A stretch of 64,000 bases of DNA from Spinacia oleracea. Lineage: Eukaryota; Streptophyta; Magnoliopsida; Caryophyllales; Amaranthaceae. Location of the stretch: positions 5,580,001 through 5,644,000 of the forward strand of contig NC_079490.1 of assembly GCF_020520425.1 (NCBI RefSeq), in the 5' to 3' direction. Below, one piece after another: positions 32,569 to 58,262 of the stretch (position 1 is the stretch's first letter; every line of letters begins with the position of its first letter). The position numbers and the translations under genes were made by a program. Below the pieces are notes generated by a model. That model made no database searches, was not told the origin of the DNA, and saw nothing but the letters and a program-made list of their open reading frames with translations.

Positions 32569-32890
32569 ATATGACAGAGTAAGTTATTTTAAGTTTTCGT
32601 AGATAAAATTGATTTTAATTTACATATGTTCAATCAATTTTATGTTAATGTTCAATCAATTTTATGTAATGTTCATTTTCGTTGCGAAGTGTTTTACCAA
32701 ACCCTAACTATTGGTTTTTTGGTCACAGACATGACGGAGTATGTTATTTTAAGTTTTCGTAGATAAAATTCATTTTAATTTACATATGTTCAATCAATTT
32801 TATGTTAATGATCAATCAATTTTATGTTGATGTTCATTTTCGTTGCGAAGTGATTTTACCAAACCCTAACTATTGGTTTTTTGGTCACAG
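32569..32890 (+). repeat. 160-bp tandem duplication (intron plus splice borders)
   Basis: Copies 32569-32728 and 32729-32890 both start ATATGAC(A/G)GAGTA-like and both end TTGGTTTTTTGGTCACAG. Each includes a donor, an intron with TGTTCAATCAATTTTATGTTA words, and an acceptor. It duplicated a splice unit of the Ulp1-like gene. Confidence 0.75.
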
Positions 32891-34002
32891 AACTGGACAA
32901 TACCAAATTGAGAATGAAATTGAAACTGAAAAGCAAATAGACAAAGTCCAGTAAGTAATTTTTATGTTTTTGAATATCAATTTCTATTTAAATTACGAAT
33001 GTGCCGTTCATATTCATAGAGATTTAAGAATAATCTTATTGATGATTAAAATTTGGATAGGGAATGTCAATTATTTCAAATATTATTATAATAATGTAAA
33101 TGTGATGAACTTTTGTTGAGTTTTTCTATCCTTATGTTAGATGTTCAATTTATGTGTAAATGTTCATATTGTTTAAGCTAAATATTCATTTTGGTCTACT
33201 GAGTTTTGTTCATTCCTCTGTAAAATAAATTAACTCGAGAACTCATGATAACTATCTTAGGCAAAATGTTCAATTGATTATAGCAGAATATTCAATATCT
33301 TTTTGAAAAATGTTCATATATTCCAAACTGGATATCCTTTTTGGTCTACTGAGTTTTCTCTAGGAATACTGAATTATTTCGAATGTTATATATATATAAT
33401 TAAAATGATTTGAACATTTGTTCATTCCTATGTCCAAAAAACTAAGTCCAGAACTCTTGATAACTGTCTGTCTGCAAAATGTTCAAAATATTTTGATAAA
33501 ATATTCATTTTTCTTTTTATAAAATGTTCAATATATTTTTATAAAATATTCATTTTCTTTTTTTAAAATGTTCAATTTTTTTCTGGAATATATTTTGTTA
33601 CTGAGTTTTGTTTTTGAATATACTATGAATTATTTCTAGAATTATATTCATAATGGAAATGTTCTTTGTACTAATATTCAATTTTTCTATCGTAAAATTT
33701 TAAAACTACACTCATTTTGGTAAAATATTCAATTCATTTTGGTAAAATGTTCAATTCCTTTTTATAAAATGTTCGTTTACTCTGATATACTAAGTTTGGT
33801 TTAGAAAATGTTCAATTATTTCAACTGCTATATTCATAATTTCAATGTTTGAACTTTTGTTCATTTCTTCAGTCCTTTTTAATATTAAAACTCATGATAA
33901 CTGTTTTTATGTTAAATGATCATTTTGTTTTCATAAAATATTCATTTTTTCAAACTGTATTTTGCTCTGGACACTCATTAGTTATACATTTATAAAATCT
34001 AG

Positions 34003-34580
34003 AGAACAACCACAAAGGTTAATACTCAAATTTAAGCGAAGACCAACTAAATCCCAGCCAGAGGTTCAGAAAGTATTAAGGTATAAGATAATATCAATTT
34101 TGTTTTAAATTTGAATAATTTTTAATATTATATAATATAATGTGTCCATTAACATCGTATTAATAAAAAATACAGTGAAGGAGATGAGAAGGCATCTACA
34201 ACTTCTAAGACAGAAGTTCAAAAATCATTGAGGTATAATATAATGTCTATTTTTAGCTTTTTGAATGATTTTTTTTTATTAATTTTATATAAAATGATTT
34301 GTACGTTTACACCTTACTATTCAAATTACAGTGAAGAATAAGACAAATCTTCATCAAAATCCCAGCCTGAAGTTACTGAGAAATCTTCATCAAAATCCCA
34401 GTCTGAAGTTCAAAAAACATCAAGGTAAAAAATAATATGAATTTTCAATTTAGTTGAATCGTTCTTAATTTTATATAAAATAGCATGTATATTAACAATA
34501 TCTTATTCAAAAAACAGTGAAGTAGATCAAGAAGATCCTTCAAAATCTATGGTACAAAAAAAGATTGCTACAAAAAATAG
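34003..34580 (+). repeat. array of four related micro-exons
   Basis: Small exons at 34003-34080, 34176-34232, 34332-34424 and 34518-34580 are separated by introns of about 90-100 bp. Several share a CAGTGAAG opening, a SKSQPEVQK-like product and a T(C/T)AAG/GTA ending. They look like tandem exon duplications that repeat a Ser/Lys/Glu-rich motif. The third has an in-frame TAA. Confidence 0.6.
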
Positions 34581-35017
34581 GTACAATTTTACTTTTTTTT
34601 AACAATTCATTTCCTTCTGCATATTTGTTCATAATTGTTTCATTGTTTGTTCATTCATTTGGAATTGTTTGTTCTTTATTTTTTATGGGTTATTCTTTAT
34701 TATTGAACAACTCTTTCTTTCTTGTTTATTTGTAAGTTTATATTTAAATGATATTGTTCATACGTTTTCATATATATGATCACACTTTTTTTGGTTTAAT
34801 TTATAGAATTTTTTTGTACTTTGTTTATCATATCAGGGGCAACATGTTAGTGAAACAACTTTTAGCAAAGAGCATAAAGCAGAACAACAAAAAAAAGGCT
34901 GCAGCAATGGTAGCTGCAGCTGCTGCAAAAGCCAGCAAAGAAGCTGAGGAAAGGATAGCTACACCTGTTGTAGCTGCACAAATAGGAGCTGAGAAAAGGG
35001 CACATGCTGCTGTTGCA

Positions 35018-35197
35018 GAAGCCAAAAGAGTCGCCGAGGAAAAGGCATCTCCAGCTGAGAAAGAAGCCAAAAGACTGGCTGAGGAGAAGGCATCTGCAGC
35101 TGATGCAGAAGCCAAAAGAGTGGCTGAGGAAAAGGCATCTGCAGCTGACGCAGAAGCCCGAAGATTGGCTGAGGAAAAGGCATCTGCAGCTGATGCC
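35018..35197 (+). repeat. 45-bp tandem repeat, four copies, encoding coiled coil
   Basis: Four in-frame copies of a 15-codon unit with consensus EAKR(V/L)AEEKASAADA. It extends the helical linker of the Ulp1-like protein. The copies differ at few bases, so the expansion is fairly recent. Confidence 0.85.
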
Positions 35198-38100
35198 GAA
35201 AGAGAAGCTGGGAAGAAAGAAGCTGAAAACAAGAGGATGGAGGCTAATAAGAAAAAGGAAGAAGAAGATAAAGCTGAAGCAAAGAAGAAGGATACTGAGT
35301 AAAGAAAGAAAGAATATGAAGATAAAATGAGTCAGCTTATTGCTAAAAACAACAAAGAGTTGATAGAGGAAGCGGAAAGGAAAGAAGCTGAGAGAAAGGA
35401 AAGAGAAGCTGAGAGAAAGAAAAAAGAAGATGATGATGCCACAAAAGCAATTGCCAAGGTGGTTGAAAATGTAAATGCTTCAGAGAGTGCAGATCCAACC
35501 AATGGTGGTAATGGAACAAGAAAATGAAGGAAGACAACTGCTAACAAGAAAAAAGCCATTCAAAGTATATATATTGATGAAGCACTACAAAAGAAGTTGC
35601 ACAACATATCAGATTCATACAATCCGAGAAGAAGTACAAGATCAATGGTGAAAGTGCAAGAAAATATTTGTGCTGAAATAGTTACCAGAGAAGAATTTGA
35701 TGGAAAAGGTAAATATTTACATTGTTCAATCTTATTTCAATAAATGATCAAATATATTATTATGTAAGTTGTACTTAGTATTTGTTATTAATGTAGATGT
35801 TTATGAAGTTACTTCCAAAGTAACAAATACTCCAAAGAAAAGGAAAGTGGCTGAGAAAAAAGTTGAGGATGAGCCTTTGGATGTTGAGATCACAAAAACA
35901 AAAAAGCAAAAAGGTAAATATACATACAAAAAAAATGTTAAGCAATAATATAAGTTATTTGATAAAATGTTAATATATTAAATACATTATTATCTTTTTT
36001 ACAGGAGTTGAGAAAAAAGCATCTGTTAAAAGAAGAATTCTTCCTCTTAGGACTGCAACAAAAAGAAACAAGAAAAAGGATACTGAAGAAGTGAAAGATG
36101 AACAGAAAACAGGTTTTACATTTAACATTGTTCAAAGTTTTTTCATGGAATGTTAATTTGGTTATCAAAAATGTTATTTTTGTTTGCATAAAAATTCTTT
36201 CTGTTTTTATCTCAGTTATTCAAAGTTTTTGGTTATATGTTCAAAGTTTTTTTCCATCATGTTCAAAATATTTCTATATTAAGTTCAAGTTTTCTTAATT
36301 ATGTTCCAAGTTTTTTATCATATGTTCTAAAAACTTTAAACATATGATAAAATAACTTTGAACTTAATAAAATTTAACATTGTTCAATTTTTTTTCATGG
36401 AATGTTCATTTATTTATCATAAAATGTTATTTTTGTTTGGATAAAAATTCTCTCTGTTTTTATCTCATACAGTTATTCAAAGTTTTTGGTTATATGTTCA
36501 AAGTTTTTCTCCATCATGTTCAAAAGTTTTCTATATTAAGTTCAAAGTTTTCTATATTATGTTTGAAGTTTTTTATCATATGTTCAAAGTTTTTGGACAT
36601 ATGTTAAAATTTACAATTATTCAAAGTTTTTTGGTCATATGTTCAAACTATTTTTCCATTTTGGTCTATTGACAGGACTTGCAGAAGTCATAGCTAAAGG
36701 GAAAAGGAAAATGAAAGAAACTTTGAAGAAAAGAAAGGAACAAGAATAAGAGGTTCAAGAAGAAGAGGAAGAAGAGGAAGTTGATGAGGAAGAAGAGGAA
36801 GAAGATGAGGAAGATGAGGAAGAAGAAGAAGTGAAACAACAAAAAAAGATGAAAAAAGGTATATATATTTAGTATAATAAAATGTTAAAACATTGTATTA
36901 CATATTTATCAAAACTTCTTAATTCTATGTTCTTCTCTAACAGAGCAAACAGTACCGGTGAAGGATAGGTTGCTTATGTTCGAAAAACAAAGACAAGAAA
37001 TAGGTAAGATTAAAATTTATTTGTTTTCCATAAGATAAAACATTCTAGGATTGTTATTAAAACTCACTTATATGTGTTCCTTTTCCAGCATCAAAAAGAA
37101 CAACACCAAAAGCAAACCTACCTGCTGAAAAGAAACGAAAGAGGAAAATAGCTGATGAGGATTGGGAAGGGAAGGAAGAGAATAAAAATGATGATATTCA
37201 CAATTCAGAAAAAGGTAAAAATAAAAATACTTGAATGAATCTATGTAATTTATTTTTATTCTTATTATTCATGCATTAATTTTTGACTTTGTTAATCAGA
37301 TTTAGTTGTGGAATAGGAGGCTTCCCCTTTGGCGATGATTACCAAAGAAGTTCCTGCAAGAAAGAAACAATGAAATCAATCGCTGTTTACAAGGAGAGAG
37401 TAGAAGAAGAAGAGGAAGAAAAAACCGGTGTTAGAGGAGGACACGGAAAATTCATCACATTCATTTCCATGATGAATGAACAGAAGAAGGAGGCCGTTCG
37501 AAATATTGGTCTAGGAGCATTGCTAGATTTCCAGCTACCTACTTCATCCCAACAATTTGTTACATGGCTGTGTAACAACTTTGAGGAAAACAACCAAAAT
37601 CTTTATCTGCCAAAGAATGAGAAAATTCTGATAGAATTTGAGGACGTGAAAAAGATATATGGCCTTCCTAGCGGTGAAGTAGAGATAGTTGAGGCAAAGT
37701 CTGACAAGGCTAGTGAAGAATTTTCTGCATTCATGGCAAGGTAAATGATCTTAAGTCTATACTTTTATTTTTAATATGTTATAGAGTTCAAAAATCTAAC
37801 TGCATTATGCATGTACTATAAATGTTCTTTTACTTAAAGTTATTTGTTCAATTGTGTATGGCTTAATATACATTCAGAATTTGAAAGTTTATCTCATACA
37901 ATTATAATGAGAAAAAGTTTTTTCTGCGTTTATCTCATACAATTATTCATAGTTTTTCCTCCTTATATTCAAAGTTTTTATCAATTATGTTCAAAACAAT
38001 TCCCTATTATGTTTAAAGCTTCTCCAATATGTTCAAAGCTTTTCTCCAATATGTTCAAAGTTTTTTTCCTTTATGTTCAAAGTTTTTTTCCTTTATGTTC

Positions 38101-41100
38101 AAAGTTTTCAGTCATATGTTCAAAAAACAGATTGAAGAAGACATTAATACATGAAAAGTGAAATCCTAATTAAATTTTGTTCATATTTAATGAAATTTTG
38201 TTTTTCTTAATTAAATTTTGTTCATATGTATATGGTTGTTCTTTTTTTATAACCCTGATTCATATAATTGTTCATAATTGTTCATAGTTCTTGTTGTGTT
38301 TGTTCTTTCTTTTTATATTGTTTGTCCTTTCTATTTGGGAATGTTTATCTTAATTAGATTTTGTTCATTAAAAAAACAGTTGAAAAAAAATCTTTATAGA
38401 TTCAAAGTGGAATCCTCTTGGGAATAAGGTCCCATCAGTTCAGAAAATTTTGAAGTACTACAGTCGAGAAGACCAAATTGAGGCTGGACCAGATGCAAAT
38501 TTCATTACAAGCTTCTTGGTGGTGACTGTCAACACATTGATCAAAAGCACATTGTCAAACCAAGCATACTTCAAATTTTTGTTCTCAATGATGGATCATG
38601 AGCAGATCCAGAACTTGAACTGGTGCAAGTATGTGTGGGAGGCACTGCTCTCAACTACTGCACAGTATAAAAAAAACCTGAAACTAAAGGACAGAGCAAC
38701 ATTTTTCACAGGACCATTGCCGTTGTTGACGGTATAGCATCATTTACACCTTCTAAATTTATGATTTTAATCTACTTGATCAATCATAGGGTTTTTCTAA
38801 CATTTATACTTTTTATGTCAGATTTTCTATTTTGAAAGAGTTCAAAGAATGAACTTTTTTCCTCCAAGACGAATTCCACTTGTGTCCTGCTATACAAAGG
38901 AAATAGGACAAAAACGGAATGAATTGGAGAAAAGTGGCTTTGGATTGGGGAAGGTGTTACCCAAAATCAATATTGAAGAAAAACAAACTCCCAAGGTATT
39001 CCTAAATACATTACATTCTAATAGATTAAAGTTAATAATTCTGCAAAATATAAATATGTGTAATATTAATTTTATGTTCCTTCCTTTAATATGTTAAAAA
39101 ATACTTTAAGAACATATATAAATAAATGTTCATAACCCTTTGCTTAAATGTTCTTTATTTTTGCATATAATGTTCATACCTCTCTAAGCCATATGATAAC
39201 ATAATGAAGAATTAGTGCATTATATACAGAAAGTAATAAAATGTTCAAACCTCTTTGGTTTTTTATTCAAACTGTATCAATAAATGATAAATATAAGTGT
39301 TTAACCTCTTTAATTATATATTGTGTATGTGCACAAGTGTCATTCAGTATATATAGTTGTTCATAATTTTAATTATAAATGTTCAAACTGAAACACCTAA
39401 AAAGTTTACTATTCCCTAATGTATGTCAATGGGTTTTAAAACACAGGAGTTTATGGATGAGTTTGTGGGTATAATTCAAGCTGTTGGTGACAATTTGTCA
39501 AAGCTTTCTGATTCACTGAAGAAGGCGCAAGAATTCTTCCCAGGAAATGAGTTGGTATCTAAAGTGGAAGAGTTCTTGTCAAAAATGGCAAAAGAACCAT
39601 CATTAAGCCAAGATGAGTGGTCTGATGACTTCATTAAGGCTCTATTGGAGAAAGAAAAAGAGTTGTTGGATGCAATTGATCTGGAGAAAAAGAAAGCAAA
39701 AAAGGATAACAAGAGATATGAGTATAATATCAATAAAGCTTTCGACTAGGGACTTACACCATCACCGATGGTAGATGATGACAAGTTGAAAGGTCAGAAA
39801 GCTGGTACATCCACCTCTACGCCAAGTTTGTCACTGGAAGAAATAGATGAATCTTTGGCTTCTGCTATGCTAAATCTAAAACAAAGAAGGGAGGAAGAGA
39901 AAAAAGAAAATGAAATTGCAAAAGCTAAGAAAATGATCCAAGCAGAATCACAAGTGAGTGAACCAGCTTCAGAAGAACCAAAAACAACAGTGGAGAACAT
40001 TGTTGTACAAGAAGAGAAGACTGTGAGCTTGGATGCAGCTACAGTGGAGCCTGAGTTGCATGTATCAGAAATGATGCCTGTAACTAATGTAATTCAAGAG
40101 AAGCCTGCACCAGAAGTGAGAAATGAAAAGGATCCTGCACCACAAGTGATTAAGAAGAAGGTTACACCAGATGGGGTTGAGGAGCAGCCTGCAACAAAAA
40201 AGACAAATGAAAATGCTGAACCACAAGTTCTTGAGAACAAGGTTGCAACACAAATGGCTGAGGAGCCAGCAGAACCTCATACTCCTACACAGTCGCAGGT
40301 GAAAATAGCAGTGGAAGCTGAACAATCTGTTGGTGCAGGACAATCTTCTCTTCCTTCACCAAAAACTCCACTGAATGAAGTCTCAATATCAACATTAATT
40401 TCAAGCACAAAAACAGATTTGAAATTGGACGAAATTTTTGAAGACAAAGAGGAAAAAGAAGATGAAGGAGAAGGGTAAATTTTAACTGTACTCAGACTAA
40501 ATTTGTATTTGTGAAACTTTGGTTATATTATGAAAACTATTTTAAAGACATAATAATGTTTTGGTTATTTAAAATGTCATGATTTAACTTTTTAATCTTT
40601 TTGTTTTTCGTTAATATTCATTCTTTTTATAAGTTTTGTTCAAACTTGTTTAATATGTTCATACTCTTCTAGTTTTTGTTCATACTTGTTAAATTCTTGG
40701 ATCATTCTTCTGGAATGTTATGTTCTTTCTTTTTGTAATTTTTGTTCATTCTTTTACTTTATATGTTCATACTTTAAAATTATTTGTTCTTTCTTGTTCA
40801 AACCTGTTAACTTCTTGGTTCTTCTTCTGGAATTTTATATTCTTTCTCTTTATTTATCTTATATGTTCGTACTCTTAATCTTATATGTTCATACTCTTAA
40901 TCTTATATGTTCTTTTTATAATTAAGTCGATTTTTTGTTAAATTTTTTGTATATACAGAAATGAGAAAGGTGACGAAGGAAAAAGACCTCAGAGGATTCA
41001 CAAACTACCGGCTGCCTTCTCTTCTCCATATTTGGTCAAGTATCGAGACTTGTTCAAAAATCTGGACACAATGCATCAAAGCCTAGAAGATTATGTGTTA

Positions 41101-42628
41101 AGTGGTCAGGACAACAGGTATTTTCTTTAATTTCACGTAAAAGTAATTTAAAATTTAAATTCAAATACTTCCTCCTAATTTACTTCCTTTTTGTAGTGAG
41201 CTTCTTTATTTTGATGGATATAACTACATCAATAGAGAAGACATGAAAACACTGGTTGATGAAGTGGAAGTGGTTGACTGTGTGATTGATTCATGGTCGA
41301 AGTATCTAAATGCAAAGGACCATAAAGATAAACTCTTTCTTTCAACAGTTCCATATGTAAGTATAATAATTGATGTTATTTAAAATGTTCATGTTGTTTA
41401 TATAAAATGATCAATTTTCTTACAAAGAATGTTCAATATAAAAACAAGTAATGTTTAATATATTTAAATAGAATGTTCATAATTACAACACATAATGTTC
41501 AAAAGTTTGAAATGGAATATTCATTATTGAAATAATTAATGTTCAACAAAATTAAGATAAAAAGTACGAATGATTAAATTGAAATGTTCATTATCATTGT
41601 AAATAATTTTACATATTTTTTTAATTGAATGTTGATTATCTTTAAATGCAGCATATTATGTGCACAAACAAGGTATGTCCAGCAGGATCCTCCTACGAAA
41701 AAAGGCTTGATGGTTTTAAAAGCGGGATTAACGATGAACTGAATAACTATAATTTCAAAAACATTCATCAATTTAAACAGGTAAACCTATATAACTTCTA
41801 ACCCATTCCTAAAACTTTAATGTTCATTTTAATGTACATTATTATTCATTGTTTTTAACTTAAATAATTACCTCTTTTTCAGATATTCATTCCCGTTCTT
41901 GCTGCAAAACACTTCTATCTCCTAGTCATCAACCATTACAATGCAATTGTGGATGTAATTGACAACAGGCCTCTACCAAAAAATGTAAAATTTGAAGATA
42001 AATACGAGGACACCCAGAAGTTGTGGTAAGAAATAAATCCTTCATAAATGTATATTTGAAACATCAAAAGATAATTATCTTACATTTTTGAACTAAAATT
42101 CCAGTTGGATGCTTTTGCAAAATATATGGGCACATTTGGTTATGACGTAGAACCAATGCAAAAGTATGAAATGAATTTGCTCAAGATGAAATGGAGAAGC
42201 ACGAAGGACTATACAAACTGCGGTGTGTATGTCATGAAGAACATGGAGACCTATACTGGTGATCCAAGACATAAATGGATCTGTGACTTGAAGGCAAATG
42301 ATGTAAGTTTAATTTTGTTCATTCTTCTTTCGTATTTTGTTCATTATTTTTATTGTTTTTGTCTTTTCTGTTTTATTGTTCTGTCTGTTGAATTTCTTTT
42401 ATATTCCTAATTTTATAATTTAATATTTGGATTTCATAAAACATTTTTAATTTTTTTTTTAATTTTGATATACAGACAAATCAAATAAGGAAGCTTCGTG
42501 TCATTTTCTGTGGTCTCCTAATGCTTTCAAAGCAAAATAAAAAGCATGAGTCAAACATAAATGAAGCATGGAGGAGTTAATGAAAAATTAAGCAGATAGT
42601 AAGAAGGTTAACAAACAAAGATAGATTT

Positions 42629-44003
42629 TGAAGGAAATAATGCCCTTGGTCCAAGTATGCATTCTATGTTAAGTCTAATAAATGCGGTTCAGTATTAATT
42701 AACAAGTTAATAATTCAGTGAGATCAAGTGAGCTGAATGCCTAGCTAGAGGCCGCTTCAGTTCAAGTGGAATTAATGATATTAATCCACAGCTTACTCTT
42801 GACTGAACCCGTAGGGTCACACAAATAGTACGTAAACGGATCAAGTATTTAATGGCATTAAATACTCCATCTATGAATATTCGGAACCGACGGATCTTGG
42901 TTTCAGTGGGAGCTAAGATCGTCACAGGCAAGAAATGAATACTCCGGAAACGGAAATATGGATCGTATCGGAAATATAAATATTATCCAAGTCGTAGATG
43001 TTGCCGGAAACGGAAACATGGTACGTATCGGAAAATATTATCGGAAATGGAAATATTACCAGAATCGGAAATATTGCCGGAAACGGAAATATTGTCAGAA
43101 TCGGAAATATTACCGGAATCGGAAAATAATTCCGGAAACGGAAATATTAAATATTTGTTCGAAACGGAAATTAATTCCGGAATCGGAAATATTAAATATT
43201 GTTCGTATCGGAAATGAATTCCAGAATCGGAAAATTTAATCGGAAGCGCATCGTACGAATAAGCATCGGACGAGGCCTGCCGGACGAGGCCCAGCACGAA
43301 GCCAGGCCATCGCCCAGCAAGCCAAGCGCGCCGCACAAACAGCCACGCCAGGCCCAGCGCAAGGCCAGGCCCAGCAGGCTGCGCGCAGCGCGCAGCGCGC
43401 ACAGCGCGCGCGGGCGCTGAGTGGGCTGCTGCTCGCGCGCACGCATGGGGCCCATCGTGGCTGCCGTGCGTGTGTGTGCAAGTGTTTGTGTTCGTGCACG
43501 TTTCCTAAAACATGCAGAGTTCGGTTAATGATTAAATTCTTAATTCTATTTGATAAATTAATTAAATTAGAGTTCTTGTAGGATTCTAGGTTTAATTAAT
43601 TTGTATCTGAATAGGATTTCGATTCCCTTTCCATACCGCTATAAATATGAGGCTAGGGCTCACAATTTATAACACAAGTTTCAAAGTATTCAAAGTGAGT
43701 TTTTGAGAGAAAAATTCAGTCACACATTTGCCTATAAAGTGCCGAAAATAATAGTACCTTAAGGGCGATTCTAGTTGGTCAATCTTAAGGCGGATCCGGA
43801 CGTGCTGTGGACTATCTACGGAGGGACGACACTTGGAGTCCTAAAGACTTGTTCTTGTTCGGTTCGGGCGCAGCTAGGGAAGGCACGCAACAAAGAGTAT
43901 GCATCTAATCTATGCTAAATGATTATGTGTAAATAATATGTTTTCCTGGGTTTATGGTTTTTCCGCATGATTTATGAATTGTCATATGTATCATAACCTA
44001 ACA
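42629..44003 (+). repeat. left LTR, 1375 bp
   Basis: TG...CA ends. Carries a tandem CGGAAATATT-rich region (about 42946-43230), a GC-rich GCGCGCAGCGC stretch (43380-43445), and a likely TATA box (CTATAAATATGAGG, near 43640) before the presumed R region. Differs from the right LTR by two small indels in the repeat tracts and about two substitutions. Confidence 0.93.
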
Positions 44004-44004
44004 G

Positions 44005-44017
44005 TGGTATCACGAGC
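44005..44017 (+). other. primer-binding site, tRNA-iMet type
   Basis: TGGTATCACGAGC starts two bases after the left LTR. It matches the canonical Copia PBS TGGTATCAGAGC except for one extra base. Confidence 0.8.
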
Positions 44018-44889: not shown

Positions 44890-45330
44890 CCCTGCCTTGT
44901 GTCGTGTGCCACGACCAATGGACGAATGGGCATGGGCATAGGGCGAGCCAAGGCAGTCGCGTGTGGGCAGCAAGCGAGCTGCGCCACAACGCGCGCTGCC
45001 TCGCACAAGAGCGCGCAGCCTCGCGCGCAGCGAGCGCAAGCTCGCGTGCCACGAGCGCTGCGCCTAGCATTGCTCGCGCGCACAGCGAGCGATGTCGCCC
45101 GCCCAGCGAGCGATGTCGCGCGCCCAGCGAGCGATGGCTCGCGCGCCCAGCGAGCGATGTCGCGCGCGCACTGCGAGCGATAGCCCGCGTGCGATGAGCG
45201 CTGGCGCGCGCAGCGAGCACCAATGCGTGCGGAGGCTTGCGATAGGGATGCAGCAGCTATGCGACGAGTGCATGGGCTGCGCGCACATGGCCAGCAATGG
45301 CTGTGTGCGTGCGGCCCATGGGCGTGCAAC
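44890..45330. repeat. GC-rich tandem-repeat island in retrotransposon leader
   Basis: Very GC-rich block in AT-rich DNA. Its core (about 45080-45185) is a tandem of CCCAGCGAGCGATG(T/G)C(G/T)CGCG, roughly 21 bp, in four to five copies. It gives overlapping open frames on both strands, none of which resembles a protein family. Related GCGCGC words occur in the LTRs. Confidence 0.75.
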
Positions 45331-47939
45331 GCGTAGGGTGTTTGCGTTACGATTAGATCGTTCTGAATGTTTAATTTGAAAATTTCAGTTCACGTAATTT
45401 TAATTAATTTTAAAATTAATAATTTAAATTATTTTCTTGGATTTTAATTTTGAATATTATAATTATAATAAATGTTATTTATTCTAATTATTTTACTAAA
45501 ATTAAAATCATGAATTAATTTAAATGCGACTGAAATTAAATTAAACTTTTTGGATTCAATTATAAATTTATATGAGCTTTAAATTTTAATTAAATTTGTA
45601 TGTTTCCGGTTAGACTAGAAATACATTTTTATGTTTAAAATTGGTAAAGCATATGAATTTATTGGTTTAAGTGGGAGCGTTTTTTAGTCATAAACTCTTG
45701 ATTAGGTCTACAAATCCTTAAGGTTAAAACAACTTGATTAGAATTAATAAGGACTGAATAATTGGTAGATTATTGGTGCCCTTGATTAATTGCTGCAAAT
45801 GTTTACGTGATGCATAATGTGTTTTACTAACCAGCTATGTGGGCCATTCATGATAATGAATGGGTGAATGGTATATATTGTATATGTACTGTTTTGCAGG
45901 TTATGAAGTGACTAGTATGGCCCAAATAGGATAGAAAATATGGTCTGCGTACCATTAATTTGAATGTAATTGGTCTAAAGTACCAAAGTTATTTTTCAAT
46001 TCAAATATGGTCTGCGAACCATCAAATAGTTGTAATTAGTTATAGCTTATCCTATTTGAAGAAAATGGTGCCTCCCACGGAGATTTTCAAGACGGACTTT
46101 GAAGTCAAAGCTTCAAGATGAAGTCGGGCCATACTAGATCACAAATATCTTATGCATGTTTTAAGTTATTTATTGTTTTAAATATGTCTTAAAATGCATG
46201 AGATCAAAAGCTTGATTATGTTGCATGATTAAGGATTTTAGTTCACTTAAAATCTAACCAACATAGTAAGAGCCTTAAGTTCCAAACTTAAAAATTGAGT
46301 TAAAAGGTGCCATGCCAAAATATACACTTGCTTGGATATCCTTTACATCAATCTAGTAATAGTTTTCGCTCAGCGAGGTGTTACTTATTGGTCCTAAAGG
46401 GGCAAGGTACACAAATAATTGTGAGTACATGTTAGTTTTGGTGAAACTCAACGATATAAGTAAGGAGTCCTTTTATGTCGTGGCAAATTCGATAGGTTTA
46501 CCTAATAAGTTCTTAGACGTACCTATCAACCAAGAATAGTTTCTAGACTATTAGCAAAAGGCTTTTGCTTACCTAAGATATTCTAGGATTAAGTCGACAA
46601 ACTGTGCTTAGTTCTTCAATGATTTTAGGATCTTGGAATCATTTTATTCACACCTGCCGGAACACATAATTCGAATAAAATGCTAATAACTTGTTTGAAT
46701 TGCATGGTTGCTTTAATTTCAAGTTATTATTCATGATAAATGTTTAAACTTTGCATGCTTCAATGTATGTTTTAATTATTGTTTATAATTAAATATCTTG
46801 CACTGCAATAAATCCTTTTAGAAAGGTAACAGTAAATTTCCTCGATTGGTAGTGAATCCAAGAACGATTCACGGAAATGAGAGAAAGTGAGCAATTTAAA
46901 ATGTACGTTTCTTATAGCGACTTTTATGGTTGTTTTCGAACGTCAAAATCGAATGGCAAACCAATTGGTGCTTGTGAATTCAAAATACACTGTAGTTTTG
47001 AGATCATAAAGCATTGAGTTTAATACACTCAGCTTTACCAATGGTTAACAACCTAATATCTTTGTCCATTTAATTCTCGAATGAGTCTAGTCCCTAGACA
47101 TTCGAATAGATCGATGCTTAGAGAACTTTAGAAGCTTCTGGTAAGATCATCTAGTTGAAACAAAATATTCAACATAAATTAAAATGGTAAAGAACCTTGT
47201 TGGTGACATTGGACATGTCTAACAAAGTATAAAAGTCAACACTAAAGAATTCAATTCTTAAGACTATAAGAAAAGGTACAAGAAATAGGAAAACGAGGAA
47301 CAAATGAAAGGAATTTACGATTTCGTTTCTACCTATAAGTTTATGTTTAAAGAGAAGTGACCTAGCAATCAAACTTCCTTGGTATCATATACCGCTTGAG
47401 GTTCTTACTTCGATAATAACTCAAACAATGGAAGCTAGGATACACTAATGACCTACAAGTGGGAAATGAAGCATGGCAATGCTACATTAGTTGTAGGGTC
47501 ATCTAGTTTGTTTTAAGTCCTTTCAAAGGCTGGAACTAAATGGCTATTTTGTTCCATAATCAGCATACCTAAATTTCTGCTTCAAAGACAGAAAGACTCA
47601 CATTCAGAAGAACAAAAACAATGCTTGTTTGTTTGTTTGTTTATTTGAATGAAATGGTCAATTACAGGTTGAGTCAATATGCTTGATTAAAACAAACAAC
47701 TCTTTAAAGAACTTTACTAGGTTCAAATCAAACCCTTGATTTGAGTTCCATTAATCTTTGGCATTGTTGCTTAGACCATATCAACAAGTTAACATTCATA
47801 AGCTCTATTTTGATGGACCTTTTGAAAGTTGGTTGATTTCTAGATCAAATTAAGACAAGCTAGTCTTACTTGTTGAAAGTAACAAAGAATATGAACTATT
47901 GTTAGAACGCCTAGATAATAGAGTTCAAAGCTAAAGAAA

Positions 47940-50450
47940 GGTTTTATGACTTTATTATTTCACACAGATTTGAGTGAATATAGGTTTATTTACTCAAATG
48001 TGATATAAGTTGAATCTGTTTGGCTAGTTCAAAGATTCAGAAGTATAAAAACCACTTCGCAAGAAATCATAAAGATCTAGGTTAGATCATGTTGATGATT
48101 ACTTGAGACCAAATATGATCATCAATGATTGTGTGTTGTAATTTCACAATCTAGGTCCATAAGATATGGCGTATCTAAGTTGGAATGATCGAAGTCGATT
48201 AGTACTTGATTCGATCAATGATGAATCATAAAGACTTTTCCTATAATTTCTAAAACAAAATGCTCAACTACCACCAAACTAAACCAAATTCGTCAAAGCT
48301 TTTGAAAAGTAATTTCAGAATAACTTTTCATAAAATATCTAGAGAGTTGCAAAACTCAGTGGGAGCTTAGTGTTTGTCATTCGACAAACTAAGGCCCAAG
48401 TCTAGATATATGTTTCATTGTGATTTATTCTAATGAGACACAAGGGTATTGTTTCTACCACGAATTTTTGAGAACATAATGTTTGTTTGCTCGGAATAAT
48501 GTCCTTTTGGAGATTCGTTTCCAAAATGACAAGTGGGAGAAAATAGACCTCGAAAGTTTTCGAGGCGAACAACAAACATAAACGGACATTCCGGAGGCTT
48601 TTCGAAGTGCTTCAGAAAATCCAAACTTATTCTTTAAGGACTTTAGAAGTGGCTTTAAAGAATAGACATCTCTTAGAAGACTTTACAAGTGCTTCAAGTA
48701 GAACAGAATATTCAAAGGACTTTCAAGTGGCTATTGATATTCTATTGTTTGATGTTCTATACCCTAGTAGGCATAGAGTTCAAGTCACTGGAACTATGAG
48801 ATTCTTCTATTAGATAGTGAAGAAACGTGGAGTTCAGGTCATTGAAGCTATGCGATTCTTCCATTAGATAGTGAAGAAACCTACAACTTGCAGTCAAACT
48901 ATTATCATGTAGATTAATGAGTTTGTGACTTGTAAGAAAGCTATGACGAAACCCAGATTCCCTAAAATGGTTAGAGGCCATATATAGACTCAAATGTTTT
49001 AAATGGTTAGAGGCCATAAAACATACTCAATGTTTTGATGACAAAATTGAAATTTTGTTGATTTGCAAGAATAGTTTCACACCTATTGGTTGCAAGTTTG
49101 TTTTAAAGGATAAAAACCATCAAACATTGAATTGTGTTCACACACAAAGCTAGATTAGTTGCTAAAAGTTACAAGCAAATTCACGATGTGGATTGTGTTG
49201 AAACCTCATGCATAATCGTAATGCTCAAGTCTATAATTCAAGCAAAGATTGCATATTGGTACATATAGCAATTGGATGACAAAACGTATTCCTCACTCAA
49301 ATGTTGGAATAAACTATGCACATGGTATGTCATAGGATTTGTGGATCCAAATAAATGCTTGAAAAGGAAAGCTAGCTTATGAAATCTAAGTCCAGATTTA
49401 AGCAAGCAATTGGGAATTAGAACTGTATTTTAGTGAAGCTAATAAGTATTTTAGTTTCATAAAATGTACATGATTCTTATAGATATATAAGAAGTTTAGT
49501 GGGAGTACATAAAACTTAATTGGTCCTATGTGTATCACACACATATCTCTCTGTTGTAAAATAACATTCAAATGCTAATGACTTAGATTTGAGATTATTC
49601 ATCAATAATGGACCATGGCGAAACTTAGTACATACTGGGTATTAAGATCTATTTACAAAGATCTTATGATATTGTTTTGGATTAAGTAATGGCATTTACT
49701 AAATCAAACACGAAAGTCTCCATTGGAGATATTCGACCCATGTGAATAAATCTAAGTAAAGGATGTTTGAACTATGTATAAGCATTTACTAAGTTAAACA
49801 TCAAAGAATCTAAGTAAGATTCTTAAACCTATATTATATGTCAAAGAATTTAGCTGGATTTAGTATCTACTAAAACTAGATGAGCTAAAGTTACAAGAAT
49901 AGAATTCAATTGGGAATTATTCTGCAAAAGAATTTATCATGTATGATATAATATGAGGATCGCCAAAAACGTATCGTATGACTTTAGCCATGACGAACAT
50001 ATACCAATCTCTATTGATCTAAGTAAAGATCAACTAGATTGAGATCAAGAATACTTATGGTACTTGAAAAGGTACATAGGAATAGTTCTTGATTCAAGGA
50101 AATAAAGATATGCTAAATATTGATGCTACACGCATAAACACTGGCAAAGGATCAAGCAAGACCCTTTGGAGTTAACCATTGATAAGGACGAGCTATAGAG
50201 CATCGTGTTTTGAAATGGCAACATGGATTGGAGACCATGAGTTGTTGCGTGGGAAATTAAAATAATAATTTCTATGTTCTAAGATATAGTTGGAGAGTCT
50301 TCCACATATCTATGAACTGCTTGGATAGGTAAATCCAAACAAAGCATCACTAGCAACCTATACAGTTGAAGTAAAAGTGATTATTGCCTAAGAAGCAATA
50401 AAACAGGGTTGTTTAAAGTTCTTCACTGAACTTGGGTAGATCACCTATCT
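47940..50450 (+). pseudogene. fossil Copia pol (integrase, RT, RNase H remnants)
   Basis: Recognisable only as scattered words across frames. Near 47950-48120 is an integrase-like stretch. Near 49070-49300 are GCKFVLKDK, then ARLVAK-like, QIHDVDCVET, MLKS and QLDDKT words, which correspond to the Copia RT block around CKWVFK...RLVAKGF...QMDVKTAFL. Near 49330-49390 is a GFVDPNK...LKQ-like word. Near 50340-50440 is SLATYTVEVKVIIA*EAIKQ..FFTELG, matching the RNase H end. Stops and frameshifts throughout mean it cannot encode a working enzyme. Confidence 0.65.
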
Positions 50451-51588
50451 GCTGGCTTGATGGTTCTTCATTGAAAAATGCGTAGAACCACTCTTGAAGC
50501 AAGAAAAACGTCTGCTAACTTGATGGTTCTTCATTGCAAAATGAGTAAAACCACCATCGAAGTAAGAAAGACTAGATCACATAATAAACAAACTCGAAAA
50601 GATCTTATCATCATATCTCGAAGAACATTCGATGAAAAGGATATTAAGATTGGCAAAGCATGATAACTAAACCTATGCAACAAGTGAGAAGCAACACTCA
50701 CGTTGTAGCACTGGAAATCAAGCATAGCTTTGAATTCCATGAATTGTTTTAGAAGATGGGTTTGAGGCCCATGGTTATAAAACATTTGGGTTGAACATTT
50801 ATCATATATGAAATGTATTTTCATATTCCATTTAATCTTGGTTTAGTATTAAATGATGAGTCCCTTCAATTTGACGATATATTCAAGATAGACTGTCAGG
50901 ACCAGTCCTGTGACTAAGAAATGTCTATCAAGTGAACTTGAATGTCAAAGGTTGAAAATGGTCCCTAGTCGGAGTTTTCTGTAAAATTGGACGCATAGAA
51001 AACGTTAGACGATTAGAATGCAAGATGACTAGTAGTTCTGTTTCTTGAACTATGTGGACATGGCAATGTCATAATCATTTGCATAGATACTTACTTTGGG
51101 AAGACTAGTATCGGACAAGACCTATGAAACTTTACTGTAAGAGATGAAAATCTGTCATGAGTAAATTTCATTAAATTATTAGACACTAAATCCTCAATAC
51201 CTGAGTGATTTGAGATTACTTGTTTGAGAACTGGTTGCTTTGACGTTGACCAACCGTCGCACCGTAAAAGGAGGCTATAAAGGCAACGCTCAGGTAATCA
51301 CCTATCAAACGAAGTCTAATCTCAAGATCGCAAGATTGGGATTGTCCTCCCATAAATCGGGATGAGATGCTTAAAAGTTGTACAAGGCCACTCGGAGAGC
51401 TAGAAACTGTGAAATGCATGGCCGTGCTCGGATGAATCATAGGCTATGATTATCTGTTTATTTGATCAGTTGAACTCTGAAACCGAGGAACACCTCTGGA
51501 CGTAATAAGGATGACAACTCTTACCTTATGTTCAAGAGCAAGCATCGAGCGACAAAGGAATTAGGAAATGCACACTTGTCCCTAAGGA

Positions 51589-51600
51589 CAAGTGGGAGAC
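51589..51600 (+). other. polypurine tract
   Basis: AAGTGGGAGAC immediately before the right LTR, the expected position and composition for plus-strand priming. Confidence 0.7.
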
Positions 51601-53018
51601 TGAAGGAAATAATGCCCTTGGTCCAAGTATGCATTCTATGTTAAGTCTAATAAATGCGGTTCAGTATTAATTAACAAGTTAATAATTCAGTGAGATCAAG
51701 TGAGCTGAATGCCTAGCTAGAGGCCGCTTCAGTTCAAGTGGAATTAATGATATTAATCCACAGCTTACTCTTGACTGAACCCGTAGGGTCACACAAATAG
51801 TACGTAAACGGATCAAGTATTTAATGGCATTAAATACTCCATCTATGAATATTCGGAACCGACGGATCTTGGTTTCAGTGGGAGCTAAGATCGTCACAGG
51901 CAAGAAATGAATACTCCGGAAACGATGATATTGCCGGAAACGGAAATATGGATCGTATCGGAAATATAAATATTATCCAAGTCGTAGATGTTGCCGGAAA
52001 CGGAAACATGGTACGTATCGGAAAATATTATCGGAAATGGAAATATTACCAGAATCGGAAATATTGCCGGAAACGGAAATATTGTCAGAATCGGAAATAT
52101 TACCGGAATCGGAAAATAATTCCGGAAACGGAAATATTAAATATTTGTTCGAAACGGAAATTAATTCCGGAATCGGAAATATTAAATATTGTTCGTATCG
52201 GAAATGAATTCCAGAATCGGAAAATTTAATCGGAAGCGCATCGTACGAATAAGCATCGGACGAGGCCTGCCGGACGAGGCCCAGCACGAAGCCAGGCCAT
52301 CGCCCAGCAAGCCAAGCGCGCCGCACAAACAGCCACGCCAGGCCCAGCGCAAGGCCAGGCCCAGCAGGCTGCGCGCAGCGCGCAGCGCGCACAGCGCGCA
52401 CAGCACGCGCAGCACGCAGCACGCGCGGGCGCTGAGTGGGCTGCTGCTCGCGCGCACGCATGGGGCCCATCGTGGCTGCCGTGCGTGTGTGTGCAAGTGT
52501 TTGTGTTCGTGCACGTTTCCTAAAACATGCAGAGTTCGGTTAATGATTAAATTCCTAATTCTATTTGATAAATTAATTAAATTAGAGTTCTTGTAGGATT
52601 CTAGGTTTAATTAATTTGTATCTGAATAGGATTTCGATTCCCTTTCCATACCGCTATAAATATGAGGCTAGGGCTCACAATTTATAACACAAGTTTCAAA
52701 GTATTCAAAGTGAGTTTTTGAGAGAAAAATTCAGTCACACATTTGCCTATAAAGTGCCGAAAATAATAGTACCTTAAGGGCGATTCTAGTTGGTCAATCT
52801 TAAGGCGGATCCGGACGTGCTGTGGACTATCTACGGAGGGACGACACTTGGAGTCCTAAAGACTTGTTCTTGTTCGGTTCGGGCGCAGCTAGGGAAGACA
52901 CGCAACAAAGAGTATGCATCTAATCTATGCTAAATGATTATGTGTAAATAATATGTTTTCCTGGGTTTATGGTTTTTCCGCATGATTTATGAATTGTCAT
53001 ATGTATCATAACCTAACA
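51601..53018 (+). repeat. right LTR, 1418 bp
   Basis: Near-identical to the left LTR. It is longer by an 18-bp unit GATGATATTGCCGGAAAC near 51924 and about 25 bp of CACGCGCAG-type repeat near 52400-52425. Two substitutions were noticed (a T/C near 52554 and a G/A near 52898). Confidence 0.93.
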
Positions 53019-53772
53019 GATTTTTAGTACAATGTAAAGTAAATATTTGGGTATTTTGGTGGTTTGTTCAAAAACATATGACTTAGTGTTCATTTCTTTT
53101 ATGTTTAATATTCAGTTTCCTTTGCAGTATTGAATTAAATGCACAACAAAATTTGCAACTCAATAATGCATACAATATAAATATTTATTAACTGCTTGAT
53201 TTTATGAAAATTATATATAAAGATTAATATCGTTAAACAATGTTCATTGAGAAAATAAGTAATAATCAATATGAAAATTACTAATATTCATTGTATTTCA
53301 ATATAATGTTCAATTTTAAAATTACTAATATTCATTGTATTTCAATAAAATGTTCATTTTAGAAATACTTAATGCTCAAAATTTTCATATAGAATATTCA
53401 CTTTGAAATTCGTATTGTTCAAAATCTTTAAATAGAAAACACATTGACAAATGTGTATTGTTCAAAATCAAAAGTAGATAATGTTGAATATATTTGACTA
53501 AAATGTTCATAAACTTCAGAAGGATGTCTTGAAAAAACATAAAATAAATTCAAACATAAAATATTGTGAAAAATAGTGATGATCAAAATGTTTGACCTCA
53601 ATATTCATTCTATTAAAACTAAATGTTCAAACACAATAAGAGCACGTACTACCTTACCTAAATGTTCATTCTATTTAAAATAAATGATCAAAACGTTTGA
53701 CCTCAATGATCATTCTATTTAAACTAAATGTTCAGTACAAATAAATGCACGTACAAATTTTCAACTCAATAA

Positions 53773-56700
53773 TCAATAGTTACTAAATCCTTGACTTTTA
53801 ATGGCTTTTTCAGCAGCCATTGATTCATCAAAAAGAGCTAAAAAAGCATCATACTTAAATTTCTAATAAGCTTGATCATTAGCAGATTGATGAGATCCTT
53901 TAGTACCCAACGGAGGTTTAGTAACCAATGAAACTTTAGGTCCTTGAACCTTATATCCAACTTGAGTAATTTTTTCAGCCTGAATAGATCCTTGAACTTT
54001 AGGTACTACTTGAATAATTTCTGAAGCATGAACAGGTCCTTGAACTTTACCTTCAGTAACAGATGGAGCTTTAGTAACAGATGAAACTTTAGTAACCATT
54101 GGTGATGGTGAAAGTCCCAAGTCAAATGCACTCTTGATATCATACTCAAATCTCTGCTGATCCTTTTTTGCTTTAGTAGCTGATGTTCCTTTAGTAGCCA
54201 ATGGTGCTTTATTAACCGATGGTGCTTTAATAGCCGATGGTGCTTTAGTAGCCAATAATGCATTAACTTTTGTACATGCATCGGTTTTAGTACTTCCATG
54301 AACATATGAATCATTTAAGGTTTCATTTGTTGAATTGTTTTCCTAAAATTGACACAAAATGTAAAGACATTCAAAAACAGAAATTTAAATATTCATTTTA
54401 AAGAATTAAATATTACTATCTACCTTGTCCGATGATTCTACATTTTTATCAACAACACCACCTCTTCTAAAATATTTTGGAGGCGGCTTCGGAAAAGAAG
54501 CATCAACCTGAAAAATTAATAGTGATCATTTATCAGATAATAATGTTAATATATTTATAACTAAATGATCAAACTTTGCAAGGATAACAACCTGAAATAG
54601 TGAAGGATCTAGTACAACTAGATCAGATGAGTCATTAAGAGAATTAGAGAAAATCACAGGAGCACCAACTTCATCCAACTCCTGCAAAAACCAAGCAAAA
54701 AAAAACAAAAAAAAGAATGTTCAATTAGTTATGTGCAAATGATCAATTTATAAAACATATATGTTCAATATTAATAAATATTTACCATGACTGCAGATTG
54801 AGCCTTAAACCTTGTTGCATCTGTAAATATTGCTTTTCTCTTCCTCCAATTCCCTTTAGCTTTATTGTAGATTTTCTCAACTGTACTCTTCAATCTGTCA
54901 TTCCTCTCACCTTTTTTCCTTAAATTCTGTGGGTTTTTTACTAAGGGCACAAAGATATCTTCACCCTCTTTAGGATCAGAAAAATCAATTGTACCCCTAA
55001 TACTCTCCACTTTTTCTTTTAAAAGACCAAAGGCAGAATCAACCTCAGCCCTAGCTTGAAGAGAATCTTGACTAGACATAACAAGCTTAACAAAATTCCT
55101 AAGGGTTTGTGCCCTCCAAACAAAATCCGCAACTATATTGGACTTTTCACCATCATCTTCAACCAAATGACTGCACATAGCCGCTTTTGTCCACCTCTTC
55201 AATATATAGAGATTGGGAATCTCTGGGACACAATGCACATGATAAACACGAAGCGCATGAGAACATAAAAAACCCATTTCAGTAAAATACTGACAAGTAC
55301 AATCCACTGCAAAAGTCTCTTGGTTAAACTGAACTTCATGTTTAATCAAGTCTTTTTTAGGCCTCCACACATAATAACTTTTCTCTGTAGCTGTGTTTCC
55401 GCGTTTTTCTTCTTGAGAACATGCCATACCTTTAAGAAATTGTTCTTCAAACAAAACATATGCTTCTATAGTGTAAATCTTTCTCGCATGAAGAAGAATT
55501 CCGCAATTTGCAGCTGCAACTTCTGGTCTACCTTTCCAATTTCTGTAGTCATGACCATTCTCTTTGCTCCTCCACTCAGAAATAACATCCAAAAAAACAT
55601 GATAAAAATCACATAAGCCTTGTGTCTTATCAAGTCGATGGAAAACTGACTTGTTGGTAGTTTCACAACGCTGTGATGATAACACACCACCAGACCAATA
55701 GTTCTTAGAATAAGCAGGACACCACATCTCTCTGATTGTATATAAATTCTTCAACCATGGATTTTCAACGCATTTATAGTGAGTCAACATTCTGAAAAAC
55801 AAAATGTTCAATATAAAAATCAAATTTGTTCATCAGAATATACCTATTTGTTCAGAATCAGAAAAAGCATATAACTTGGTAATAACATGAAATAATAAAA
55901 TGTTCATTTCTTTATAAGTAAATATTCATAAGATTACAAGTACATATTATTTATTAATTTGAAGTAAATAAGTAATACAAATTAATTACCTTGGCCAATG
56001 ATATTCAAATTCAGCAGCAGTTTCACAATACTTCAGAAGATAATTGAATATGTCAGAAAAACCATCTAAAGCTCTATACTGCCCAATATGCTTCTTTGAA
56101 TTCTCCCCAATATGCCACGTACATAATCTATGTCTAGTATCTGGAAAAACATTCCTTATCCCAGCAGCAATGGATGGAGCTTGGTCTGTCATAATGGTTA
56201 TTGGAGGATTTCCACCCATTGATGTAAGGAAAGTTTGAAAAAGCCAATTAAAAGATTATGTTTTTTCATTGATAACAAAACCCATTCCAAACATAACATT
56301 ATTAGCATGATGGTTCATACCAACAAAAGGAGCACAAATCATATCATATTTATTGGTCCTATAAGTAGTATCAAAAACCAATAAATCCCCAAAATAATCA
56401 TAATCTCTCTTCATCCTACCATCACGCCAAAAGAAACTTAAAAGTCCATCTTCTTCACTAAGCTCAAAGTCATAATAAAAACCTTCTTCACTGGAATTTC
56501 TCTGAGCAAAATACTTGATTAACTGATGACAGTCATGACCTTCAAGTTTATTAGCTTTTGCACGTGATAAAGCATTATAAGCATCACTAGCTGTAAAACC
56601 AACCATAGGAGATCCGCCTACTTCTTTCCTCAAAACCCTCAAGGTATCAGACACTTTAACACCACTAGCTTTTAAAGTAGACATAAAGTAAAGAGCCTCC

Positions 56701-58024
56701 TTACTAACCTTCCTTTGTGATCTTATCAAATGCCTCTTATTTAGAGGAACCATAGCATGATTATGAATCATATTATGATTCACAACCGTCCACACACCAT
56801 CCTTACCAATAGAAAACTGAACAAAAGCAGTACACCCAGTACGCGTATCCAATCTAGCATAAGACCTTGTTCTCTTCCTTTTTTCATCTTTAACCCCTTC
56901 GCAGCTACACAAGAACCGTTTCATAGTATAAAGTTCACTGTTTTGACGTTTCCGACCTTTCCCAACCCTAATACCAAAACCTTTACTAAAAGCATATTCA
57001 TTATACAAAATCATAAGCTTCGTCTTCATTTTTAGCTTCCTTCATCATTAACATAGATTCTGACCCTTCAACAAAAGACTTACTTCCTTATTCATTGCGA
57101 ATGGAAGAAATGTTCAATGTTAAATTAGGGATTGTTCAATGTTAATATTGTGAATGATCAATTTCAATAATAACTAACATTTTGAAATTTTAAATGTTCA
57201 ATATCCTTAAATAAAATGTTCAATATTAAAATAATAATGTTAAAAATATTAAAATAGAATGTCCATGTTTAAATAGGTGTTGTTCAATGTACTTAAGTAA
57301 AATGTTCATTACGAACATAGGTAATATTAAAAATATTAAATAAAATGTTCATTGTAAAATAGATAATGATCAATAAATCTTAATAGAAAGTTCAATATAA
57401 TACAATAGAATGTTCATTATCTAAATAAAAAAGACACAATACATTTCAATGCAATGTTCATTACTAATATACGTAACATTCAAAGTCATTAAATAAAATG
57501 TTCATTATTATTGTAGACAATATTCAATTTCCTTGAACTGAATATTCATAATTTGTTAAGAATGTCATAACTAAACAATGAACAATTTTTTCTTTTAGGA
57601 CAGAACAATTCAAAAATTCATAACATAATATGTATTTTTATCAAAATATATAATGTTCATAAGATCTGAGCTAAAAATTCATTAACATTATATACATTAA
57701 TAATAAATAAAATTATGAATAAAAATCGAACAAAAAACTAACGTACAATTGCAAAAAAATAAGAAATTCTGCAGAAAACCAAAACAAAGATACAAATCAA
57801 AATCAAAATATCCAGCGAAAACACGAAAAATAATAAAATTCTAAACACATTTTATCCAAAATCAAAATATAAAATCGAAAACAATCAAAACCAAAAACAT
57901 TGAAATCAAAACAAATAAATGAAAATAATAAAAATGTAAACTTACATTCTGACATCAATGTACTTAAAATTCCAGAATTAGATTCGAAAAGAGTTTCAGA
58001 ATTATCCATAACTGCGAGCTCCAT
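53773..58024 (-). pseudogene. FAR1/FHY3-type MULE transposase with SWIM finger, disrupted
   Basis: Element transposase of the lineage that gave FHY3/FAR1 regulators. Probable first exon 58024-57946 (MELAVMDNSETLF...). The main exon, about 57110-55990, holds the FAR1 zinc-binding domain (YNEYAFSKGFGIRVGKGR, CSCEG, GCTAFVQF, HNHAMVP). The MULE core follows, with DLLVFDTTYRTNKY, GMNHHANNVMFG, ITIMTDQAPSIAAGI and CTWHIGENSKKHI. Exon 55791-54786 carries the SWIM finger CTCQYFTEMGFLCSHALRVYH. Small exons follow at 54681-54592 and 54507-54424, then a tail from 54342 with TKAPS repeats. Damage: a frameshift near 57010 in YDF/YNEY and in-frame stops near 57090, at 56256-56258 (in NEKT*SF) and at 53863-53865. 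The catalytic acidic residues remain visible. Confidence 0.87.
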
Positions 58025-58242: not shown

Positions 58243-58262
58243 GAGGGCAGCCAAAAAATTGC

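Follow-up and report, generated by a model that had tools for sequence, protein, structure and literature searches.

What does a short DNA motif do when it is repeated, almost always on the same strand, throughout the noncoding DNA of a transposable element? The question is raised by a Mutator-like element (MULE) in a 64,000-bp stretch of spinach (Spinacia oleracea) DNA (C4:5580001–5644000), referred to here as the window. A first-pass annotation had noticed dozens of TGTTCA hexamers in this element and had proposed that they form an element-specific address tag, similar to the motifs read by the VANC proteins of Arabidopsis VANDAL MULEs. The observation is real and strong. By analogy with the VANC genes and their Ulp1-bearing counterparts (KIU), we consider it quite probable that the array is an anti-silencing target of the VANC/KIU type, read by the protein encoded by the element's own second gene.

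When a nested long terminal repeat (LTR) retrotransposon is left aside, the whole MULE contains 93 copies of TGTTCA and 10 of its reverse complement, TGAACA. With the exon bounds of both MULE genes set by eye and approximate, the noncoding DNA (8451 bp) holds 92 and 3 copies, respectively, and the exons (7697 bp) hold 1 and 7, which agrees with the earlier statement that the motif keeps its + orientation over both genes and that TGAACA is rare outside exons. The nested retrotransposon has 2 copies of each, as against the two or so mentioned before, and the flanks (37.5 kb) have 17 and 14. The mononucleotide expectation is 0.31 copies per kb per strand, indeed well under one, and the two halves of the MULE noncoding DNA contain 10.5 and 11.8 TGTTCA per kb. 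Recounting of three stretches for which 11, 11, and about 15 copies had been claimed gave 11 (+) and 0 (−) at 53.04–53.73 kb, 11 (+) and 1 (−) at 57.10–57.66 kb, and 17 (+) and 1 (−) at 32.6–33.9 kb.

Hexamers were also ranked by region. TGTTCA comes first of all 4096 by z score (17.8, order-2 Markov model), by count, and by strand asymmetry, and it remains exceptional after removal of the five clearest duplicated stretches: 78 copies are left, the rank is still first, and dinucleotide shuffles of the sequence without these duplications (n = 300) average 6.2 and never exceed 15. Nearly every site is flanked by A or T, on the 5' side in 99% of cases and on the 3' side in 98%. The sites are distributed as follows.

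32425..34760, + strand: TGTTCA arrays in the 5' introns of the second gene
36129..36645, + strand: TGTTCA array in a second-gene intron, with units of about 21–22 bp
37845..38367, + strand: TGTTCA array in a second-gene intron; five of its copies are spaced 22, 22, 22, and 21 bp apart
39127..39385, + strand: TGTTCA sites in a second-gene intron
40637..40891, + strand: TGTTCA array in a second-gene intron
41386..41826, + strand: TGTTCA array in introns that interrupt the Ulp1 domain
42316..42343, + strand: last intron of the second gene, with two TGTTCA sites
53065..53734, + strand: TGTTCA array between the convergent genes, 11 copies, none reversed
54718..55906, + strand: TGTTCA sites within introns of the transposase gene, to which they are antisense
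57111..57659, + strand: 11 TGTTCA copies with 22-bp phasing, located upstream of the main transposase exon

The element that carries these sites has transposase domains, a 10-bp target site duplication, and short, degenerate inverted similarity at its ends (GTACAGCCA.CTTGGC.GTACC near both ends), features that mark it as a MULE. Target site duplications of VANDAL-type MULEs range from 8 to 11 bp. Two convergent genes, both broken in the window copy, make up its gene content, with the second gene on the + strand and the transposase gene on the − strand.

31695..58262, no strand: MULE, 26.6 kb including the nested LTR element and about 16.2 kb without it
31685..31694, no strand: left copy of the 10-bp target site duplication (GCCCATCATT), identical to 58263–58272
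58263..58272, no strand: right copy of the duplication, a perfect match to the left copy
32164..42581, + strand: second gene (KIU/VANC-like) with many small 5' exons; exon bounds approximate
37.3–39.0 kb, + strand: DUF1985/plant mobile domain (PMD)-like domain of the second gene
40.96–42.58 kb, + strand: C-terminal Ulp1 (C48) domain of the second gene
53793..58026, − strand: transposase gene, with FAR1, MULE, and SWIM domains at 57041–54774 and probably more exons at both ends
42629..53018, no strand: nested LTR retrotransposon, 10.4 kb, inserted between the genes, with GATTT on either side and LTR starts at 42629 and 51601

Copy L046 represents the empty site of the nested retrotransposon, positions 42629 and 53018 of the window being adjacent there, and the empty-site copy (L014 with L046) is 99% identical to the window in the first transposase exon. 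The retrotransposon lies outside the tag system and serves as a natural control. It contains GC-rich tandem repeats of 21–23 bp at 45013–45189, and just to the right of the MULE, at 59248–61301, an inverted pair accompanies two near-identical direct-repeat sets with spacings of 544 and 1478 bp. Within the MULE, an 80-nt segment (peptide ...AFDLGL.PSPMV) is common to both genes: it lies at 39693–39772 in an exon of the Ulp1-like gene and, inverted and 84% complementary, at 54095–54174 in the 3' part of the transposase gene, as if an exon had been copied between them.

The outermost TGTTCA sites are 730 and 608 bp away from the left and right MULE ends, respectively, and the array is therefore internal. 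This position bears on the possibility that TGTTCA is bound by the MULE transposase, through its FAR1 domain or SWIM zinc finger, for transposition or autoregulation, the model being the subterminal repeats of En/Spm and Ac. The element does encode a FAR1-domain transposase, and among related MULEs the motif tracks transposase similarity (see below), but the outer 730 and 608 bp, where a transposase should bind, are motif-free, and the motifs are distributed through the introns of the other gene. Subterminal transposase sites are ruled out by the motif-free ends, and we regard a transposase-binding role as very unlikely.

Distances between TGTTCA sites in the window MULE peak at 22, 44, and 66 bp. 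Pairs of sites no more than 120 bp apart number 129, and 69 of them (53%) fall at most 1 bp from a multiple of 22, compared with a mean of 14% and a highest value of 27% in 2000 trials with jittered site positions. A step of 22 bp is about two helical turns and places the sites on one face of the DNA. At 22 bp downstream of a site, 63% of the positions match TGTTCA (28% by chance), and the second-best offset in the range from 12 to 59 is 44 bp, with a match of 49%; neighbors at 22 bp that are not intact often read TATTCA, TGATCA, or TGTTCT.

A search of the 894-Mb genome with the transposase exon yielded at least 149 matches (1295 candidates, 146 scored), which were sorted into groups by identity to the window transposase, not by a tree: A (84–100%), B (about 65%), C (about 50–56%), and D (about 33%). 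We compared the 30 best-scoring A loci, one of which is the window, with 9 copies of B, 8 of C, and 4 of D, and counted an upstream array where at least four motifs lay on one strand (in the upstream 1.8 kb for B, C, and D). Related MULEs do carry the motif: an upstream TGTTCA array is present in 27 of the 29 clade-A relatives, the exceptions being L021 and L036, and in 9/9 copies of B, and upstream arrays of TGTTCT and AGTTACT are found in 8/8 copies of C and 4/4 copies of D, respectively, although several C and D copies are nearly identical in their counts and do not represent independent events. The motif thus tracks transposase similarity, with TGTTCA in A and B, TGTTCT in C, and AGTTACT in D. 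In a 10-kb stretch from one copy each, the leading hexamers belong to the TGTTCT group in C and to the AGTTACT group in D, and TGTTCA is one of the two highest-ranking in B. None of the three motifs reached four copies in two more distant relatives (40% and 36% identity).

Helical periodicity recurs in these groups, at 22 bp in A (a resonance scan of a second A copy also peaks at 22), with commonest spacings of 21 and 42 bp in B, 21–23 bp in C, and 20 and 40 bp in D. In the group D MULE L045, AGTTACT/AGTAACT arrays extend densely over several kb with spacings of 20 and 40 bp, and we regard them as a parallel system that has an address of its own. One copy each of B, C, and D was examined for the second gene, and in all three a relative of it lies convergent to the transposase; its identity to the A gene is about 43% in B (main N-terminal exon), about 27–33% in C, and about 25–28% in D. 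As for gene integrity, the window transposase has one in-frame stop in the MULE domain and an open first-exon frame of 261 codons; 18 of the 29 clade-A relatives are open there for 375 codons, and 26 of the 29 have no stop in the matched first-exon stretch.

In A and B, TGTTCA is mostly antisense to the transposase (310 antisense and 25 sense over the 30 A loci; 48 and 5 in B). In group C (TGTTCTTTT; 47 TGTTCT antisense, 142 sense), the motif strand follows each gene; in L044, unlike in A and B, the strand of the TGTTCT array flips between the two genes so that the motif is sense to both. TGTTCT flips in the same way at a C-like locus at C1:12.844–12.855 Mb. All 156 AGTTACT sites in D are antisense (0 sense). 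Strand also bears on an RNA-level signal, i.e., U-rich repeats in introns, repeats acting as splicing enhancers, or phasing of small RNAs. The motif is T-rich and located in introns and spacers, and the behavior of group C speaks for such a signal; in A, however, one strand is kept through the introns of both convergent genes and the spacer, so the motif is antisense in the transposase introns. Moreover, 12 of the 15 introns of at most 104 bp have no TGTTCA, and D has a different sequence. An intron or splicing signal is ruled out for A, as strand is independent of gene direction there, and an RNA-level role is hardly credible overall.

The regular spacing could also be the relic of a tandem-repeat expansion, with a decayed 22-bp satellite unit spread in the noncoding DNA and no protein to read it. 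Many stretches are indeed tandem repeats of 21–22 or 43–45 bp, some of them recently duplicated, yet the enrichment persists once the clearest duplicates are removed. For seven window arrays (3–10 units each), spacer identity is 0.39–0.67 within arrays and, between arrays, 0.26–0.42 in 17 of the 21 pairs and 0.43–0.58 in the other four, chance being about 0.33. Despite these mostly dissimilar spacers, which rule out a single satellite, the arrays have the hexamer and the phase in common. When tandem units were chosen by an outside anchor, motif columns in A were more alike than spacer columns (0.50 versus 0.39; difference of 0.11, block bootstrap 0.05–0.16). The difference was +0.07 in B (0.03–0.12) and +0.17 in D at 20 bp (0.09–0.22), and in C the values were 0.43 and 0.34, given here without a bootstrap.

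Retention across copies points the same way. Because earlier pairs had been chosen (with 20/20 and 10/10 in favor of TGTTCA once the two worst-aligning copies were left out), we compared the 28 alignable clade-A copies in every possible pairing (378 pairs), L021 and L036 having been omitted from the alignment. The reference was matched hexamers, defined as those others that contain a single G and a single C. Retention of TGTTCA was higher than theirs in 364 pairs, equal in 1, and lower in 13, bearing in mind that pairs share sequences and the comparisons are not independent. Mean retention was 0.67 versus 0.27 in pairs less than 75% identical (53/53 in favor), 0.77 versus 0.37 at 75–90% identity (48/48), 0.84 versus 0.76 at 90–97% (161/172), and 1.00 versus 0.95 above 97% (102/105). 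These results, and the fact that groups of diverged sequence repeat the array design, some with another motif, make the satellite relic improbable.

The candidate reader is the product of the second gene. Its best protein matches are from Spinacia oleracea (P0001–P0005 and P0008; 82–95% identity over the aligned part), and compared with these annotated relatives the window copy has at least four in-frame stops; the next-best matches are from Chenopodium quinoa (39–48% identity). The Ulp1 domain (Peptidase_C48) scores above the Pfam cut-off of 20.7 bits in the window reading (22.7) and in P0001 (20.9) and below it in P0002 (16.8) and P0003 (15.8), and P0004–P0008 gave no match. The coiled-coil exon contains, at 34988–35200, a 45-bp repeat in 4.7 copies that encodes 15-residue tandem peptide repeats, and this stretch varies in length among P0002, P0003, and P0008. 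An alignment of the N-terminal domain from A, B, D, and quinoa has 13 invariant columns, and two quinoa relatives score 20.6 and 20.9 bits for the PMD, below the cut-off; we read the domain as probably one family, situated between DUF1985 and the PMD. A distant-relative search with the domain returned quinoa proteins only, sequence comparison with solved structures matched only F-box only protein 4 (E of 0.07–0.13, not useful), and an AlphaFold2 model of P0001 built from 9 sequences had a mean predicted local distance difference test score of 34.6.

In the mechanism that we favor, a second-gene protein composed of a DUF1985/PMD-like part, a repetitive coiled-coil part, and an Ulp1-like protease part would bind TGTTCA flanked by A or T on both sides. 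With sites 21–22 bp apart on one face of the helix, neighboring molecules may bind cooperatively, and only dense arrays would be recognized. Once in place, the protein would clear the element of DNA methylation or block it there, which would make the transposase and the second gene expressible. The analogy with VANDAL and VANC drawn in the first-pass annotation is well supported, by dense same-strand, tandem motifs largely restricted to noncoding DNA, by the upstream array in 27 of the 29 clade-A relatives, by the different motifs of some sister groups, and by the Ulp1-bearing second gene. Reportedly, the 2022 abstract of Sasaki and colleagues names motif sequence, density, and helical periodicity, together with the domains DUF1985, DUF287, and Ulp1; the motif features named there recur in the spinach element.

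Several observations weigh against this mechanism. The N-terminal domain of group A matches neither DUF1985 nor the PMD, and DUF287 stays below its cut-off of 21, whether scored for a single exon (18.6 bits) or for the joined reading (15.9). In group B, the domain fits the PMD (27.0 bits, below the cut-off of 34.9) better than DUF1985, and in group D it scores 16.3 bits for DUF1985, far below the cut-off of 35.1, and 13.1 for the PMD. The 10-kb stretch of the D copy has only the N-terminal domain of the second gene and no Ulp1 match. The resonance scan of B peaks at 17.75 bp, not at 21, and the strand behavior of C is unlike that of A, where the strand is constant. With four groups, sorted by identity, motif and second gene are not tied together statistically. 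In a column-wise comparison of five clade-A copies, two of which align at only 63–66%, motif columns show no extra conservation (0.791 versus 0.822 for the rest), and in D the difference between motif and spacer disappears at 40-bp units (0.52 versus 0.50), a unit that holds a second motif position; the last two results also speak for the satellite relic.

The remaining points concern the arrays genome-wide. Triple TGTTCA sites at a spacing of 21–23 bp number 2061, versus 40 reversed, and triple TGTTCTT sites at 20–22 bp number 2919, versus 53 reversed, some of the latter being a 21-bp repeat of coding appearance. This repeat, TGTTCTTCGCGAAACTCATCC, occurs in many places (e.g., C1:4228399), is probably coding, and is apparently unrelated to the group C arrays. 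Among the triple-TGTTCA places listed, all on contig C1, several coincide with the A and B matches listed and others do not. Two loci, L047 (C1:56.64 Mb) and L048 (C1:64.63 Mb), have 74 versus 1 and 42 versus 3 TGTTCA, respectively, with a commonest spacing of 21 bp in both, and no second-gene relative was found within the 10 kb examined at either. The L048 arrays lie beside a distant MULE, the transposase of which is 24–33% identical to that of the window and to which TGTTCA is sense. One hexamer is thus common to A, to B with its about 65% identical transposases, and to the L048 arrays, so that the tag does not belong to a single family and the term "element-specific" is not supported.

This sharing would fit a public address, in which one or a few PMD-type proteins read the phased TGTTCA arrays in A, B, and the L048 group and derepress them together, while C and D would have branched off with private motifs (TGTTCT and AGTTACT). 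We consider such an arrangement rather unlikely; if it were true, cross-family help, rather than strict self-recognition, would shape transposon persistence. Recognition by the element's own second-gene protein is the reading that we prefer. One crop genome with sister groups of like gene content and three motifs at about 20 to 22 bp would allow direct tests of how protein and target coevolve, of the domain that determines the motif, and of the reason for the helical phase, and would yield new tools for sequence-specific removal of DNA methylation. Because of its parallel systems in one genome, the spinach case is very probably an unusually clear one of a kind already known. What is new is the 22-bp phase, the retention of TGTTCA across clade-A copies, and the existence of sister groups in which the motif tracks transposase similarity.

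Within the literature cited here, as far as its accessible text goes, VANC-type anti-silencing has been shown experimentally in Arabidopsis only. Our literature search, mostly made without spinach as a term and with subscription papers mostly outside its reach, returned no such spinach motif among the matches listed, and the accessible parts of PMC10398659, PMC12312487, PMC12859917, and PMC8756742 add no spinach case. According to the available portions of Hosaka et al. 2017 (PMC5735166), VANC21 binds YAGTATTAY, and VANC6 targets carry AGTTGTCC or AGTTGTAC; both motifs are dense, same-oriented, and often tandemly repeated in VANDAL noncoding DNA. The same source describes VANC proteins as having DUF1985, DUF287, and variable regions, often with tandem peptide repeats (which the coiled-coil exon of the spinach gene has as well), and VANC action as leading to methylation loss. 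Like VANDAL21/Hiun with its VANC21, the spinach MULE encodes a transposase and a second protein and has, as far as that source describes the Arabidopsis element, a short, dense, same-oriented, often tandem motif in noncoding DNA, mainly outside exons; in VANDAL21, this DNA is intronic, intergenic, and terminal. Unlike VANDAL21, it has a different motif, belongs to a plant of the order Caryophyllales, lacks a recognizable DUF1985 in A, and has Ulp1. The difference between the VANC6 and VANC21 motifs, as given there, is paralleled in spinach by C and D versus A; unlike VANDAL6/VANC6, spinach A and B have one hexamer, at spacings of 22 and mostly 21 bp.

For the Ulp1-bearing VANC genes (KIU), the accessible part of a 2026 review (PMC13317346) states that they recognize motifs in, or act on, the VANDALs that carry them and that Ulp1 was captured around the monocot–eudicot split and kept in eudicots. 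The spinach motif and its phasing are not among the literature matches listed for KIU, in so far as those sources were accessible. Group A resembles KIU/Kaonashi, i.e., the Ulp1-bearing VANC genes of MULEs without terminal inverted repeats, in the C-terminal Ulp1 domain of its second gene, and it differs in that the N-terminal domain is nearer the PMD in group B and the quinoa relatives. TNPA of En/Spm is likewise an element protein that binds many short subterminal sites and is reported to relieve methylation. Unlike the subterminal sites of En/Spm, those of the spinach element fill its interior and avoid the outer 0.6–0.7 kb.

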